Part shown: positions 4,623 through 16,657 of the stretch, in pieces
Position numbering within the stretch: the first letter of the stretch is position 1
How the letters are laid out: every line of letters starts with the position of its first letter
Assembly: GCA_021805395.1 (NCBI GenBank)
Contig: JAJZFJ010000280.1
Span: 1-63,349, forward strand
Reading direction: 5' to 3'
From: a bacterium
Lineage (GTDB): Bacteria; Armatimonadota; Chthonomonadetes; Chthonomonadales; Chthonomonadaceae
Length of the DNA stretch: 63,349 bases
Notes under the pieces: generated by a model
The model's database searches: none
What the model was told of the DNA's origin: nothing
Seen by the model: the letters and a program-made list of their open reading frames with translations, nothing else
Made by a program: the position numbers and the translations under genes

Positions 4623-6668
4623 CTATGCTACTTTGGTTAGTGTAATACTTGCCAGATTGATAGGGTTCCAGTTTGCTGGATCAGCTGGCTTTACTGTAAC
4701 AGTCATAACTCCTGGAGTATCAAGGAAAATAGTACCTAGCACTGATTCCTTGAACACAGCCCAATCGCTGGTAGTGGGTACAACAGCCTTCATGGTCTTT
4801 ACACCTACACTTATAAGGACTGAAGGTGACGCTCCCAAACATGCAGTGTTCATGGAAACCTGCCATGGGCCAGTATCAGTTAGCTGAACGGTCCACTGTA
4901 CATAGTCTGAAGAGTTGTTCCAAAAGCCGATATCTGGAATGCCCTTAGTTTCAATCTGTAGATTGCCATGCAGTACGGCCTCTGCTGGTAGTAGTTTAAT
5001 CACGCCATCAGATTCCTGCACTGGAGGAGGAGGTGGCATGACTGGCATAGATTTGGACAGGTCCAGTCCTTCAATTTTAAGCACCCACGCATAATCACAC
5101 GGTGGGTTTTGGGGCAGATCAATCTCCAGACCATCTGCAGTATTTTGGAAGGTAACTTTGCGTTTGCTGCCAAGGAGTGATACATTGGTGACTTTACCCA
5201 CTATTCCTGGTGCCGATGTTCCAAGGCAGCGAATGAGCAGCTTCTGATTGGTTGGCCAGCCAAAAGTTGCAGCATAAAGTGTGTTCCCTTTAGTTGTAAA
5301 TCTATAGTCTTTGTCTGTGAGTGTGTCATTCCCATTATCTGATCCTGGCATTCCAGGACCTTCACCAAATATCTTCCAGGGACGGGTGTCATGAATTGCT
5401 TCGCTATTCACATCCATCCATGCAGTGAGCCCTTCCAGGAAGAGGAACTCATCAGGATCCGGAGATCCATCACCCTTTAGCGGAATATTGAGCATGAGGT
5501 TGCCATTTTTGCTAACGATATCAAGAAGCATGCGAACTACTTGATAAGGAGTCTTATACTGGTGGTTCTCATACAGCGAGAGCAGGTAGTGCCATTCTCC
5601 AATACAGGTGTCTGTCTGCCATGGAATCTCCTCAATCCCAGAAGTTCGTCCTCGTTCATGGTCTTCTACCATACAGCGGCGCTGCTGCGGATTTAAAAGT
5701 TTGCCGTTTAGTACTACATTCACTTTTCCATCACGCTTAACACTCTGGTTATAGTAGTAAGCCATGATTTTGAGCCCGATGTCACTTACCGGATAGATCG
5801 GGAGAACTGTGTCATCAAAGTAGAGTACATCAGGGTGGTATTTATCTATCAGATCAATTACCCTGTTGTAGAACTTGTCTATATATGCCTGGTCTGGTTT
5901 CACACAACCTGGATCTGTGAATTCCCAGGAGAATGTGCCTGTTTTATGGTTCTGAGCATATAACTGCACATTGGGATTGAGACCCTCCCACCATAAGCCC
6001 TTGCCATCCTCTGCTGTCATTACTCCATCATATTTGATACCCTTGTATGGACCATGAGTATCTGCACCCTGTGCTACTTCAAACCAGTTCCATGCATGGG
6101 AAGCATGAACCGATACGCCAAATTTTAAGCCTGCTTCCCTCGCAGCTTCTGCCCATTCACCGACAATGTTTCGCATCGGCCCGATCTTTGTGCTGTTCCA
6201 TGGCTGGTATTTGCTGTCCCAGCAATCAAAGTTATCATGGTGATTTGCAAGAGCAAAGAAATAGCGTGCCCCAGCTGCCTTGTATAGTGAGATCAGTTTC
6301 TTGGGCTCCCAGGAATCTGTTTTCCAGATATGGTCTATGTCTTTGAAACCAAATTTTGAAGGATGACCATAGTGTTTACAGTGATACTCATACTGATAAC
6401 TGCCCTCCTGATACATTCCTCTGGCATACCAGTCCCCCTGTTCAGGCACACATTGAGCACTCCAGTGTGCCCAAATTCCAAACTTGGCATTTCTGAACCA
6501 TTCGGGACATTCATAGTTTTGTAGTGAATCCCAGTTAGGTTGAAAGGGACCGTCTAATTTTGTGCTGATTTGTTCCGCTCTGGAAATCTTTTCTGCTGCA
6601 GGAAGGATAGTAAACCCTGCGGCAAGTGCAGTTCCTTTTCGAAGAAACTTGCGGCGCGATAGTGACAT
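4623..6668 (-). CDS. GH29 alpha-L-fucosidase, Tat-exported
   Basis: This 681-residue enzyme hydrolyses alpha-L-fucosyl residues from glycans. The N-terminus carries a twin-arginine signal (SRRKFLRK then a hydrophobic AAGFTILPAA stretch), so it should be exported folded. The catalytic barrel covers about residues 45-430, with FGIWAHWSAQCVPEQGDWYA and HHDNFDCWDSKYQPWNS motifs. The nucleophile is probably Asp285 in DVLYFDDT. Beta-sandwich sequence follows, and the last 120 residues look like an extra carbohydrate-binding-type domain. An AGGAG site lies 6-7 bases before the ATG. It stands as a single transcription unit ending at a terminator. It could remove fucose from xyloglucan side chains, which fits the rest of the window. 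Confidence 0.9.
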   Translation of the reverse strand: MSLSRRKFLRKGTALAAGFTILPAAEKISRAEQISTKLDGPFQPNWDSLQNYECPEWFRNAKFGIWAHWSAQCVPEQGDWYARGMYQEGSYQYEYHCKHYGHPSKFGFKDIDHIWKTDSWEPKKLISLYKAAGARYFFALANHHDNFDCWDSKYQPWNSTKIGPMRNIVGEWAEAAREAGLKFGVSVHASHAWNWFEVAQGADTHGPYKGIKYDGVMTAEDGKGLWWEGLNPNVQLYAQNHKTGTFSWEFTDPGCVKPDQAYIDKFYNRVIDLIDKYHPDVLYFDDTVLPIYPVSDIGLKIMAYYYNQSVKRDGKVNVVLNGKLLNPQQRRCMVEDHERGRTSGIEEIPWQTDTCIGEWHYLLSLYENHQYKTPYQVVRMLLDIVSKNGNLMLNIPLKGDGSPDPDEFLFLEGLTAWMDVNSEAIHDTRPWKIFGEGPGMPGSDNGNDTLTDKDYRFTTKGNTLYAATFGWPTNQKLLIRCLGTSAPGIVGKVTNVSLLGSKRKVTFQNTADGLEIDLPQNPPCDYAWVLKIEGLDLSKSMPVMPPPPPVQESDGVIKLLPAEAVLHGNLQIETKGIPDIGFWNNSSDYVQWTVQLTDTGPWQVSMNTACLGASPSVLISVGVKTMKAVVPTTSDWAVFKESVLGTIFLDTPGVMTVTVKPADPANWNPINLASITLTKVA

Positions 6669-9906: not shown

Positions 9907-11454
9907 TCACTGAGTGGAACCAGGCAACTGTTCAAGCTCCTGCCCTGCAACATATCGAACATCAGAGTTGGTAGATTGAGCCAGCTGCTGCAGTATCGGT
10001 AAAGCACTCGCTCGGCTGCTTTGTCCTATTGCCACTGCTGCCCAGCGCTCGACACGTGTGTCGGGAGAGTTTGCTGCTGCTTTTAAGGCTGTCAGTACAC
10101 TGTCACTATTGGGTCCTAGCGTCTGTTCACCAAGGGCATTTGCCGCATAGTAAGCTAATGTTCCGCCTTTGGAAAGCAGACTCACCAAAGTAGGGGTAGC
10201 ATCTGGTCCGATAGATGCGAGTGCAGCTTGTGCAGCCTTGTTTACCGCTCCTGATTTGGCTGTGAGAGCCTTCACCAAAGGTTGAACCGCTTCTTTATTA
10301 CCCGGAAAACCCAGTGCCGTTGCACATGTAGTCTGTAACTCTTCACTGGAGGCAGGGTTGGACAGGGTAGCAATTAGAGCGCTGTCCGCGAGACGAGAAT
10401 GGATATCCGAAAGAGCAGTAGCGAGGCCCAGCTTGGTTGTCTGTGAAGCAGAAGGAAGTGCAGCTATGATCTGCTGTACAGCTGTTTTGTTTGGAGCAGC
10501 GTGCTCTCCTGGGCGACCTGCTCTGGCAAGAGAGGTGGTTACTGCAAGCCGTACTGAGAGGTCCTCGTCGTTGAGGGTTGCGATAAGTGCGCTTACTGCA
10601 GCAGGAGTTGCTAGAGTTCCCAGTCCACCTGCAGCCTGAGCGCGTACACTTGGCGAATTCGATCTGTCCTGAAGCGCTTCGATAAGCGATGGCTGGCATG
10701 CAGGTGATGCGATAAGTGCGAGCGCTCCGATTGCAGCCTCTCTCGCACCGATAGCCGCTGTTTTTGAGTGCATAAGAGCTATGAGAGGGGGTGCAGCATC
10801 AGGATCTGCTATTTTACCGAGAGCATTGGCAGCTCCCTCCTGGATGGTAACATCTGAATTGTTGAGCAAAGGTAGCAGACCAGCAAGGCTTCGAGAATTA
10901 GCCGAAGGATCGAATAGAGGACTGCCTAGCACATCGCCTACAGAACTTCGGGCATCCGCCGTAGACACAAGTGTTTGTACAAGTGCAGCTACAACGTCAG
11001 GATTTGTGCGGGGACCAATTCCTCCGTATGCATCAGTTAGCACCTGAATAGTTCCGCGTCTGGTATCCAGGCTGCTATCGCTGAGGCCCGCCATTAGTGC
11101 AGTGAGATTTGCCTGATTTGCGGCTCCTATGCGTTTCAGCTGCTGGATGGCAGCTCTGCTGACTGGTCGGTCAACATCGTGAAGCATTGCAAGCAGATGA
11201 GTAACCGCAGCAGCATTTCCCAGATCTCCAAGTGCCTGAACTGCTTCAACTCTTACTGGAATTTTCCCATCTGAGATGGAATCAGAGAATTCCTGAGCAG
11301 CAATAAGACTTGCAGCGGCAGCACTTCGCTGAGCAGGAGTTCCACCTGTGAGGTTAGCCATAAGTTCAGACATGTGCCTGTTATGAACCCAGGTTAATGC
11401 CACTATAAAAAGAACTACAGCACCAAAGATAATGTAGTTGATATACTTTTTCAA
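9907..11454 (-). CDS. Membrane-anchored HEAT-repeat protein
   Basis: This 515-residue protein has one N-terminal transmembrane segment (INYIIFGAVVLFIVALTWV) with the rest outside the cytoplasm or facing it. About 12 HEAT/PBS-lyase-like repeats follow, recognisable as units such as VRVEAVQALGDLGNAAAVTHLLAML and SVRAQAAGGLGTLATPAAVSALIATL split by short turns. Such solenoids are protein-binding scaffolds; no catalytic residues are seen. A GGGAG site precedes the ATG by five bases. It lies 19 bases downstream of nothing but 19 bases upstream of the glycosidase gene in the same direction, so it is probably the first gene of that unit. Confidence 0.8.
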   Translation of the reverse strand: MKKYINYIIFGAVVLFIVALTWVHNRHMSELMANLTGGTPAQRSAAAASLIAAQEFSDSISDGKIPVRVEAVQALGDLGNAAAVTHLLAMLHDVDRPVSRAAIQQLKRIGAANQANLTALMAGLSDSSLDTRRGTIQVLTDAYGGIGPRTNPDVVAALVQTLVSTADARSSVGDVLGSPLFDPSANSRSLAGLLPLLNNSDVTIQEGAANALGKIADPDAAPPLIALMHSKTAAIGAREAAIGALALIASPACQPSLIEALQDRSNSPSVRAQAAGGLGTLATPAAVSALIATLNDEDLSVRLAVTTSLARAGRPGEHAAPNKTAVQQIIAALPSASQTTKLGLATALSDIHSRLADSALIATLSNPASSEELQTTCATALGFPGNKEAVQPLVKALTAKSGAVNKAAQAALASIGPDATPTLVSLLSKGGTLAYYAANALGEQTLGPNSDSVLTALKAAANSPDTRVERWAAVAIGQSSRASALPILQQLAQSTNSDVRYVAGQELEQLPGSTQ

Positions 11455-11739: not shown

Positions 11740-13366
11740 TTGTTGTTTAGATTAAAGAAAAAGACAAGTACTGTTCCAAAAACTGTCGTGGAGTGGAATG
11801 ACACCCCTGCAACCTTCCCAGTGGAGGAGATCTTCAGGAAGAGCTGTATTAAGCGGAAACGGTACCTAATTATGCCATTAGCAATGCTCGGAATCAGTAT
11901 CGTTGTACTTGCAAAAATGGTCGATGAGACTATGAGTCATATATCAGATCTGAATCCTTATTATCATCCATTCTCCGGTATGTCATATTGCGCAATCAGT
12001 TTGGCATTGTACTTATTGTCTTTAGTATTTATGATCTCATCCATAAGGAAAGAGATTAAGAGGACAAAAACGCAGCGTGACAGAGTTCAACAGTTTGTGA
12101 ATAAGAATGGAACTAATTCCATCCCCCAATTACTTGATTTATTGTTACTCAGAATCAAGGGAGGATATTCATCCAGTCTTCCAGACACCATTGTATATAA
12201 TCTGGCAAGATTGTTCTCTGAAGTTGACACTTCTTCAAAAATGGAGCTTAGCTCAAAGCAAAACGATCTGCTCATTAGTCTCCTTGATCCTGAAGGTGAG
12301 TATAGCAAAGATTTCAACACAAAGCAGAAAAGACAACTTATGCATTTTAGTGTAATGCTTGCTCCTACTCTGCTGAACGTGGTTGGAATATGGGGGGGAG
12401 AGAGAGCTGTGAATGCACTGCTTCTGAAGTTCAAGAGCACATCGTCATATAATGTGAAGAGAAGTATACAGGCGAAGTTAAATGAGCTTTCCTCGGATTA
12501 TCAGATGTTGATATCTGAAACTGAGGCAGGAATTGATGACGAGTTAGTTACCACAACTAATAGGAAATTTAAATCTTTAAAACGTAATTTCTTCTCATCC
12601 TTTCGTTCTAATTTTCGTTTCTTTCTCTTTATACTCCCTTTTATCATTCCTGTGATGATCCTATTGTTTCCGGTCACGTTGAATTCTTCTCCTGTTGATT
12701 TTCTCAGTTTTATGGCAATGGCCATGTCAGGGTGTCTTGCATTGTTCCTATTTTTCACTTTCTTGCCTTTTTACTTTGATATGCATCAAAAATCACTCGG
12801 ATTAAGGAATGCTGTTAAGGACTTACCTGAATCGATCTGTAATTTTTTATCAATCGAATTAAATTTCAATTCATTCTATACTCAAGCTCTGATTATACGT
12901 AACCTTTTGGAAAATACAGATCCCTCCCAGTTAGAGCCACTGAATAGATCTCAACTTAATAAAATACACTTGCTTCTGTCTTCCCCAAACTTACTATAAA
13001 ACCCAGTTAAAAGAATTCCAGCGACTTCCTTTACCTGACATAGGCGTTATCCAAGCTATTTTACGTGGCCTCGTATTCCTTGGAAACTCAAGTTCAATGC
13101 AGGTTATTGAAAAATTTTGCAATACTACTGACAACAAAGAATACAAGATAGTTGCTCTCGAATGTCTGGATGCCCTGAAAGCTAGACTAACGGAGAAACC
13201 TGAACAGCTACTCAGAGCATCTTCCTTTACAAGTGATGCACTGCTTAGAGCTTCCCAATCGATAAGTACTAATGAACAGCTTCTTAAGCCAATGGTAGCT
13301 GAAGAGCCAATAGTGTTCCCACAACCAATAGAAACTAATCCGTTAGAGGTAAAAAACCAGCTATGA
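11740..13366 (+). pseudogene. Membrane/helical-repeat paralog, copy 1, frameshifted
   Basis: I do not recognise this family. The reading frame starts at TTG 11740 with AGGA eight bases before it. It carries a W-x-DTP-x-TFPVEE-I/V-FR-x-SC motif near residue 22, two membrane segments (about 45-65 and 85-105), a cytoplasmic helical region, two more membrane segments (about 290-345), and a C-terminal HEAT-like part. The frame stops at TAA 12997, but alignment with copy 2 shows that the protein continues in the next frame from TAT at 12995 to the stop at 13366. One extra base around 12991-12994 accounts for the break. The restored protein would have about 541 residues. Its stop overlaps the ATG of copy 2 (ATGA). 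Confidence 0.75.
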
Positions 13367-15000
13367 AATGGAAGTTTTGGCGTAGGAACTCGCAGTCACC
13401 AGATAAGGGGGTACCAGAAGATATCTGGCATGACACCCCTGAAACCTTCCCGGTTGAGGAGGTCTTCAGGCAGAGCTGTACCAGTTGGAAACGCTATCTG
13501 ATTCTTCTGTTATCAGCTACTAGCCTGACTGCCGGCATTGTGTTGAAAATGATATCTGACATTACAAGTGACGTATCCGATACTTCAAATACAAACCTTC
13601 ATCCATTTTCAGCAATCCATTATCTGGGAGCAAGTGTGGTATTGGATTTAATTGTTGTAGTATTTATGTTCTCAGCTATGCCATCACAAATCACAAGGGC
13701 AAGAACTCAACGTAAGAGAGTTCAAGAGTTTGTGAATCAGTATGGAACAGATTCAATTCCTCATCTTATTGATTTATTGTTGCTTAGGATCAAGGAGAGG
13801 CGTCCATCGACACTCACTGAAACTATTGCCTATAATTTAACGAGTTTGTTCTCGCAAATAGATTCACACTCAAAATTAGAGCTGAGTACAAATCAGATTG
13901 CTCTCCTCATTGGTCTAATTAATCCGGAATGAGAGTTCAGCAAAGGTCTCAGTAAAAGAGAGAAACGCAACTTAATCCATTTTAGTATAATGGTTGCTCC
14001 TTCTGTGATGCATCTGGTAGGAGTTGCCGGTGGAGAAAGTGGAGCGAATGCTCTGCTTCATAAATTCAGGTGTTCATCATCAGTTAAAGTTAAGCAAAAA
14101 ATATGGGTGCAATTACAGCAGCTTTCCGTGGATTATCATATATTGACTTCAGAATCTGGGGGAGGAACGGATGACCAGTTGCTCACCTTCATTAACGGAA
14201 AGTCTCAGTCTCCTAAGCGATATGACTTCTCCCTATTTCGAACTATATTGCTATTCTCATCCTTCATGTTACCTTCATTCTTTTTTTTGATGATGCTTGT
14301 GATCCCTCATATCAGATTTTCTTCGCCATATGTTTTTCTCCAGGTTTTGTTTGAAACCATGGCAGGCTATGTGGTTTTACTGCTGGTTATCACTTTCATT
14401 CCTCGTTATTATGAGATCTATCAAAGGTCAATTGGATTGAGTAATGCAGTTAAGGACCACTCTGAATCGATCAGTAATTTTTTATCGATTGACTCAAACA
14501 TCAACTCATTTTATATTCAAGCCCTCATTATGCGTAATTTGTTTGAGAATACAGATCTCATACTATTAAAGCCACTTAACAGATCACAACTGAATAAGTT
14601 ACACACGCTGCTATGTCCTCCAAATGTATATAAATTGCAGCTATCTGCATTTCAGCAACCTCCTTTGCCTGAGATTGGCACTATGCCTGCTATACTGCAT
14701 GGGCTTGTGTTCCTTGGAGATAATAGTTCGGTTAAGGTTATTGAAAAGTTCTACAAAACCACTGAGAACGAGGAGCATAAACGTGTAGCTCTGGAATGTT
14801 TGAATGCCCTCAATGCCAGACTCACTGAGAAACCTGAACAACTCCTGAGAGCATCATCACTATCTGGCGATGCACTGTTAAGAGCATCCCAGCAGTCTAT
14901 CACAACGGATGAGCTTCTTAAGCCAATGGTAGCTGAAGAGCCAATAGTGTTCCCACAAACCATAGAGACTGATAAGATAGAGGTAAACAACCAGCTGTGA
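13363..15000 (+). pseudogene. Membrane/helical-repeat paralog, copy 2, in-frame TGA
   Basis: This second copy reads from ATG 13363 to the stop at 14998-15000 with a single in-frame TGA at 13930-13932. Copy 1 has GGT (Gly) at the same place (PEGEYSK versus PE-stop-EFSK), so the change is equivalent to GGA to TGA. Both sides are otherwise open and well conserved, with the same membrane pattern and the C-terminal block EKPEQLLRASS. The restored length is 545 residues. Readthrough of TGA is possible in principle; a recent nonsense mutation is simpler. The stop overlaps the GTG start of copy 3 (GTGA). Confidence 0.75.
13364..13451 (+). repeat. 88-bp identical direct repeat (first copy)
   Basis: The first 88 bases of copies 2 and 3 of the paralog family (13364-13451 and 14998-15085) are identical, while the following sequence diverges quickly. 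This points to recent duplication or gene conversion restricted to the N-terminal coding block. Confidence 0.9.
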
Positions 15001-16657
15001 AATGGAAGTTTTGGCGTAGGAACTCGCAGTCACCAGATAAGGGGGTACCAGAAGATATCTGGCATGACACCCCTGAAACCTTCCCAGTAGAGGAGGTTTT
15101 CAGGAAGAGCTGTTTTAACTGGAAGCCCTTCTTGTTGGTTACCATCGCATCTGTTGTTCCCAATTTCCTGTTGGCCAGGAAGGCAGTAGAAATATCTTCC
15201 AAAAATGCGATGTACTTAAATCGTTATTTTGAAGAAGCATCCAAGAACCCATCCATCTTAAATAAGATGTCCTACCATCATGTATCTTCGTTGCCTTACT
15301 TTCTGATTAGTGCAGTGATCGATATTCTGTCATTCATATTTGTATTTACTTATATAATAAATCCGGACAATAGAAGGAAAGTACAGCATAACAGGCTACA
15401 AACATTTGTAGACCATAATGGTGAATTTGCAATACCCACGCTCCTGGACATGCTACAACTCATGATTTCATCCACTCGCTGTAATTTGTCAAACTTGACC
15501 GACTCATAGCATATAACTTGAAACTGCTTCTTTCACATGTTGATACAGAGAAAAAGTTATTTTTTACTACAGAACAGATTGACTTACTCTATACTCTGAT
15601 AGATGAGAAATCCATTTATAATAGTAATCTTAATTCACTTCAGCTAAGAACACTTGAAATGTTCCGACTAATACTTGCTCCCACAGTGATTGAGAAAATA
15701 TATCTAATTGCTGGATCCAATTGTGCTAATGTGTTAGAAAAAGCCTATCATGATACACAGTCACAAAGAATTCGATATCTTATTAAGAAACAATTTACCC
15801 TGTTTAATTATACAAATCAAAACTTTGAAGTTCATTCTACTTCCATAAATGTGGGAATCAATTTAAATAATGATAAAATAAAACAATTTTCAAATCGAAA
15901 TAAAAAATTAAAATATATTATATTATTTAGACAATTTTCTTTTGTATTGTTTATTATATTACCTGGACTGATAGCAGGTTTATTCAGTGGTTCCAGCTTC
16001 TTGGCACAAGGTATCATTCAGATATCTCTTTGCGCACCTTGTATTTTATTCATATCGATTTATTCTAAATTATATTTTCAAGTTCCTAAAGTAGATTCTA
16101 GAGATATATATTCTCATAAATCAGTAATTGATCATCTTTCAGTATTTAAAAATTATCACTCTTACTTCATCAAAAATATAATCATTAGCAGTATAATAGA
16201 GAACATTGATATTTCTACCATGCACCCTCTCATTTCGACAGGTCTTGATGAATTACATAACATACTATGTCCTCCTAAGTTAATAAAATCACAGTTAACC
16301 AAGCTGTATGCAACACCATTGCCAGATATTGTCTTCATTCCAGTGATCTTGAGGGGATTGGTTTACCTGGGAGACCATAGATCGGTGAAGGTTATAGAAA
16401 AATTCTCTAAATTCACTAATAACGAGAACTATAAGCATCTTGCTCTGGAATGTTTGGAAGCTCTTAAAAACAGGCTAAAGGAGAAACCTGAGCAACTATT
16501 GAGAGCTTCTTCCATGTCTGATAATGGGCTGCTTAAGGCTTCTCAGGCTACGAGCAGAGCTCAGGGGCTTCTGAAACCTGTGAATGATGATGATCACATA
16601 GTCTTCACTCTAGTTGAAAGCATAGTTGAGGAAGAAGTGAATAGGCAACAGCTATGA
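14997..16657 (+). pseudogene. Membrane/helical-repeat paralog, copy 3, frameshifted
   Basis: The third copy starts at GTG 14997 and its frame is closed by TAG at 15507. The family sequence resumes in another frame from GCA at 15509 (A-Y-N-L-K-L-L-L-S-H-V-D, matching VYNLARLFSEVD of copy 1) and runs to 16657. Loss of one base just before 15509 explains the break. The central part is more diverged and more AT-rich than in copies 1 and 2, while the N-terminal block is nearly identical to copy 2. The end again holds a GLVYLGDHRSVKVIEKF / EKPEQLLRASS block. murJ follows after 56 bases. Confidence 0.75.
14998..15085 (+). repeat. 88-bp identical direct repeat (second copy)
   Basis: Second member of the pair described at 13364-13451. 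A further 47-bp identical pair covers the C-terminal coding ends of copies 1 and 2 (13278-13324 and 14912-14958). Confidence 0.9.

Follow-up and report, generated by a model that had tools for sequence, protein, structure and literature searches.

The stretch of DNA analysed here (the window; 63,349 nucleotides) contains, at positions 11740-16657, three paralogs of a membrane-protein gene arranged head-to-tail on the plus strand, and the list of open reading frames (ORFs) together with an alignment of the copies showed that each carries exactly one lesion. Judged from the sequences, the three copies are probably young pseudogenes in a birth-and-death family.

Three tandem paralogs with one lesion each

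Copy 1 (11740-13366) has an open frame from 11740 to 12999, covering an N-terminal transmembrane segment and HEAT-like sequence, and the remainder up to 13366, which comprises a C-terminal HEAT pair and an LLRP tail, lies in a different frame; its HMM match runs over 14-426 in one frame and 424-535 in the next. The alignment places the frame shift at about 12991-12999, within a site at 12987-13002 where copy 1 is one base longer than its paralogs. Copy 2 (13363-15000) is broken by a single in-frame stop, the ORF extending from 13363 to 13932 and the same frame reopening from 13933 to 15000, with HMM matches over 15-192 and then 195-535 in an unchanged frame. The TGA nonsense codon (13930-13932) is aligned with the glycine codon GGT of copy 1, which makes the original prediction of a GGA-to-TGA-like change a fair description. 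In copy 3 (14997-16657), the first frame is open from 14997 to 15509 and a different frame leads on to 16657 (HMM matches 12-150 and then 155-536), the shift being located at about 15503-15509, within a site at 15500-15512 where the sequence is one base shorter than in the paralogs. The ORFs and the alignment thus bear out the earlier proposal of three tandem paralogs with one lesion each at different sites, including the extra base in copy 1 and the lost base in copy 3. The stop-start overlaps are also unbroken, as had been noted, with ATGA intact between copies 1 and 2 (13363-13366) and GTGA between copies 2 and 3 (14997-15000). The lesions had been described as lying outside long single-base runs, and neither a long homopolymer nor a short repeat was found in the sequence and alignment at any of the three sites.

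Selection history and age of the lesions

Mutual alignment of the three copies over 1.6 kb is far beyond chance. Copies 1 and 2 are alignable end to end (E = 4.5e-123), with amino-acid identities of ~50% before, 51% between and 70% after the lesions; copy 3 is ~36-55% identical to the other copies and is more diverged in its middle. Most differences between the copies are at third positions. The lesions divide the copies into three segments, for which dN/dS of copy 1 versus copy 2 was 0.32, 0.39 and 0.19, and the segments with unsaturated dS gave 0.31 and 0.20 for copy 2 versus copy 3. Coding sequence aligns with dN/dS well below 1 on each side of the lesions, in agreement with the earlier claim that the sequence is kept on both sides. 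Because dS between the copies is near 1 or above, these ratios reflect the history of the copies and not its last stretch. Values of 0.19-0.39 before, between and after the lesions, in every segment with unsaturated dS, indicate that selection acted on the copies over most of their past and, since both sides of the lesions still show it, that inactivation was recent.

Random substitutions in the array sequences yield stops in 3.4% of cases. Taking three lesions in 4.9 kb as input and assuming an indel/substitution ratio of 0.05-0.2, we estimate that the array would have been inactivated ~0.3-0.7% neutral divergence ago (95% range, ~0.05-2%). Intact alleles may therefore persist in sister strains.

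A clade-restricted family of HEAT-like membrane proteins

The genome, an Armatimonadota metagenome-assembled genome (MAG) of 4.16 Mb in 319 contigs with 94% completeness, contains at least 22 recognisable members of the family, ~16 of which have open frames. Open full-length relatives of ~500-590 aa are located on contigs C247 (two), C6, C35, C52, C80 and C310 (two), and more distant members of ~280-530 aa on C250, C76 (two), C309, C11, C108, C284 and C306. On predicted features, these are clade-restricted membrane proteins that combine HEAT-like repeats with spaced LLRP motifs in a C-terminal tail. The family had been called unrecognised, which is correct at the level of curated families, where only weak HEAT matches were obtained: HEAT_2 (PF13646) matched 8 of 9 members weakly (best E = 0.00084), and the best single member, at 20 bits, did not reach the Pfam gathering threshold of 27.7. 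A nine-member profile gave weak matches to HEAT_2 and to designed alphaRep HEAT-like proteins (E = 2e-8 to 2e-6 for the latter). The predicted structure consists of helices throughout, among them two hydrophobic pairs of long helices (mean pLDDT 69, moderate confidence), and a structure search with this model matched armadillo and alphaRep proteins, none of them with E < 0.001. The weak HEAT_2 matches and the alphaRep profile match are shared ground with HEAT_2/HEAT_PBS proteins (PF13646, PF03130), but those models are without the two predicted hydrophobic helix pairs and the LLRP tail. A match in a defence library (E = 0.003, 15 bits) was set aside as chance or transmembrane similarity. Given the HEAT repeats, the likeliest guess at the role of the family is a membrane-anchored protein-binding scaffold.

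Nearly every sampled member ends in a C-terminal module, in which a HEAT-like helix pair precedes approximately three LLRP/LLRAS motifs, spaced apart and close to the extreme C terminus; in the array, the alignment places it at 13016-13306, 14647-14940 and 16313-16597. The search of curated families did not return this module as a family of its own. In a 151-genome sample of the phylum, it was present in all ten genomes of the same taxonomic family, in seven genomes from a second family within the order and almost nowhere else. Genomes that have the module gave 2-25 matches each, in proteins of ~280-1020 aa. The module might serve as a tail for docking or sorting.

The occurrence of this module in relatives as short as ~280 aa, together with frames that are open downstream of the lesions and have possible starts at 13097, 13990 and 15518, would suit functional split genes, whose halves would be made separately by reinitiation at a downstream ATG or TTG and would act together or singly. 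However, the breakpoints fall within domains and differ in each copy, so that three split points would be needed, ~16 paralogs retain a single frame, and by eye no clear ribosome-binding site precedes the internal starts. We regard functional splitting as improbable and favour pseudogenes.

Lesions elsewhere in the family

Three further members were found to carry exactly one lesion each: the middle gene on C310 (L031 3868-5505) has an in-frame TAA, and two genes on C250 (L033 1106-2616 and 4414-5981) have one frame shift each. Two other members are fragments, namely a remnant on C6 and an N-terminal half on C2. Beside the C250 array, and divergently transcribed from it, are two tandem paralogs of ~655 aa without recognised function (L033 6197-10172). 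Entries of related genomes flagged as having stops inside were left out of the lesion count, since most of these stops are the ones that normally end the genes; in G004, two genes (C61 and C81) seem to carry an in-frame stop within the tail.

Six of the ~22 members thus bear a single lesion, and no member bears two. For six lesions over 22 genes, the Poisson expectation of genes hit at least twice is ~0.7 (the formula, computed for 18 genes, gave 0.8, and the 22-gene figure follows from the same formula), indicating that one lesion per broken gene reflects a low random lesion rate across the family and not a mechanism. A special mechanism for exactly one lesion per gene was rejected on this family-wide expectation. 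By contrast, the probability that all three array copies are broken is ~0.01-0.02 if 6 of 18-22 members break at random. Since three of three exceeds independent scatter, we have to assume a common cause, and loss of selection on the array as a whole is suggested.

The single interruption in each of six family members might also be expected if programmed recoding or phase variation preserved possible full-length products. Yet three kinds of interruption occur (longer, shorter and nonsense), at six different alignment positions, and no conserved recoding site common to the family members was found, positions and lesion types being different. By eye, neither a slippery heptamer nor a common motif or repeat tract is present at the array frame shifts; intact paralogs are read through the corresponding positions without any shift, and TGA and TAA also terminate other genes in the window. 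We give recoding and phase variation hardly any credence.

Errors of assembly or consensus deserve more weight, although we still consider them unlikely. The cell would then carry unbroken frames, and wrong bases would have entered the MAG through a mixture of strains at a repeat locus that evolves fast. The assembly is in 319 contigs, the closest named relatives are also MAGs, strain mixture is likely where family members are repetitive and fast evolving, and one C250 frame shift, outside the array in the window, sits at a run of six T. The other five of the six lesions, however, are outside base runs, and those of the array are also outside the 88-base identical tract described below. Two of the six are nonsense codons, the lesions are confined to one family, the ORF list of the window shows no obvious break in its other ORFs of at least 120 aa, and the paralogous proteins, at ~36-70% identity, are too distant for reads to be mixed up.

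Genomic context and possible gene conversion

The array lies between murJ and a HEAT-repeat gene on the opposite strand. The latter (9907-11454, minus strand) encodes a HEAT-repeat protein of typical kind whose N terminus has a hydrophobic segment, and its position adjoining the array may mark a partner or be a coincidence. The adjacent MurJ is 62-68% identical to MurJ of four MAGs, two of them named Chthonomonadaceae. In three related MAGs, the array is absent from the murJ locus and unrelated genes lie upstream of murJ. A scan of the named genome collection with the C-terminal part of copy 2 found no close relative of this copy; the three-copy alignment is too variable to serve as a query. 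The absence of the array from the three MAGs and the negative scan indicate that it is lineage-specific.

The start of copy 2 after its start base (13364-13451) is identical over 88 bases to the start of copy 3 (14998-15085), whereas identity between the two copies outside this tract is ~33-78%, depending on the alignment window. The sequence points to a putative recent gene conversion or to a duplication edge. On C310 (L031), the C-terminal tails of the first two gene copies of that contig (~3500-3606 and ~5400-5502) are nearly identical and their bodies only ~36% identical, a pattern that resembles conversion, as in the array of the window.

Discussion

Of the explanations first put forward for the array, very recent inactivation is supported by the low dN/dS on both sides, the single lesion in each copy and the intact paralogs. 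Phase switching and recoding find no support, six genes being broken at six sites with neither a repeat tract at the array sites nor a common motif, and read errors are disfavoured by the nonsense codons and the restriction to one family. Pseudofinder (PMC9336565) uses as its working definition of fragmented genes adjacent fragments that recruit the same homologs. The array resembles young bacterial pseudogenes in having such fragments, one lesion per gene when compared with intact homologs, and the low dN/dS of past purifying selection on both sides; it differs in that all its members are hit, along with several family members elsewhere in the genome.

We propose that the family turns over by tandem duplication, rapid divergence and loss, to which patchy gene conversion at gene ends would contribute, and that the three paralogs formed an operon-like array. 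The substitution pattern indicates that all three copies were functional until recently. Selection on the array may then have relaxed, whether because one copy had already been broken or because other paralogs covered its role, and random lesions would have landed once per gene; we infer the timing and the independence of these disabling mutations from the lesions observed. Tandem arrays, the coexistence of intact members with broken ones and fragments, and conversion-like identical tracts are all features of birth-and-death multigene families. If the broken copies were instead silent cassettes, with conversion at the shared ends feeding variation to expressed copies, the family would be a diversifying, variable membrane protein system; unlike such families, however, the silent copies here give no sign of acting as donors, and we think this very improbable.

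With the array read as young pseudogenes, a clade-restricted bacterial family would have been caught losing members, and its lesions are sparse enough for the loss to be dated. Taken by itself, the triple lesion is a common case of young pseudogenisation. The family of HEAT-like proteins with an LLRP tail is undescribed; it abounds in Chthonomonadaceae and the order to which they belong but hardly occurs in other sampled Armatimonadota, and it may merit a separate look.
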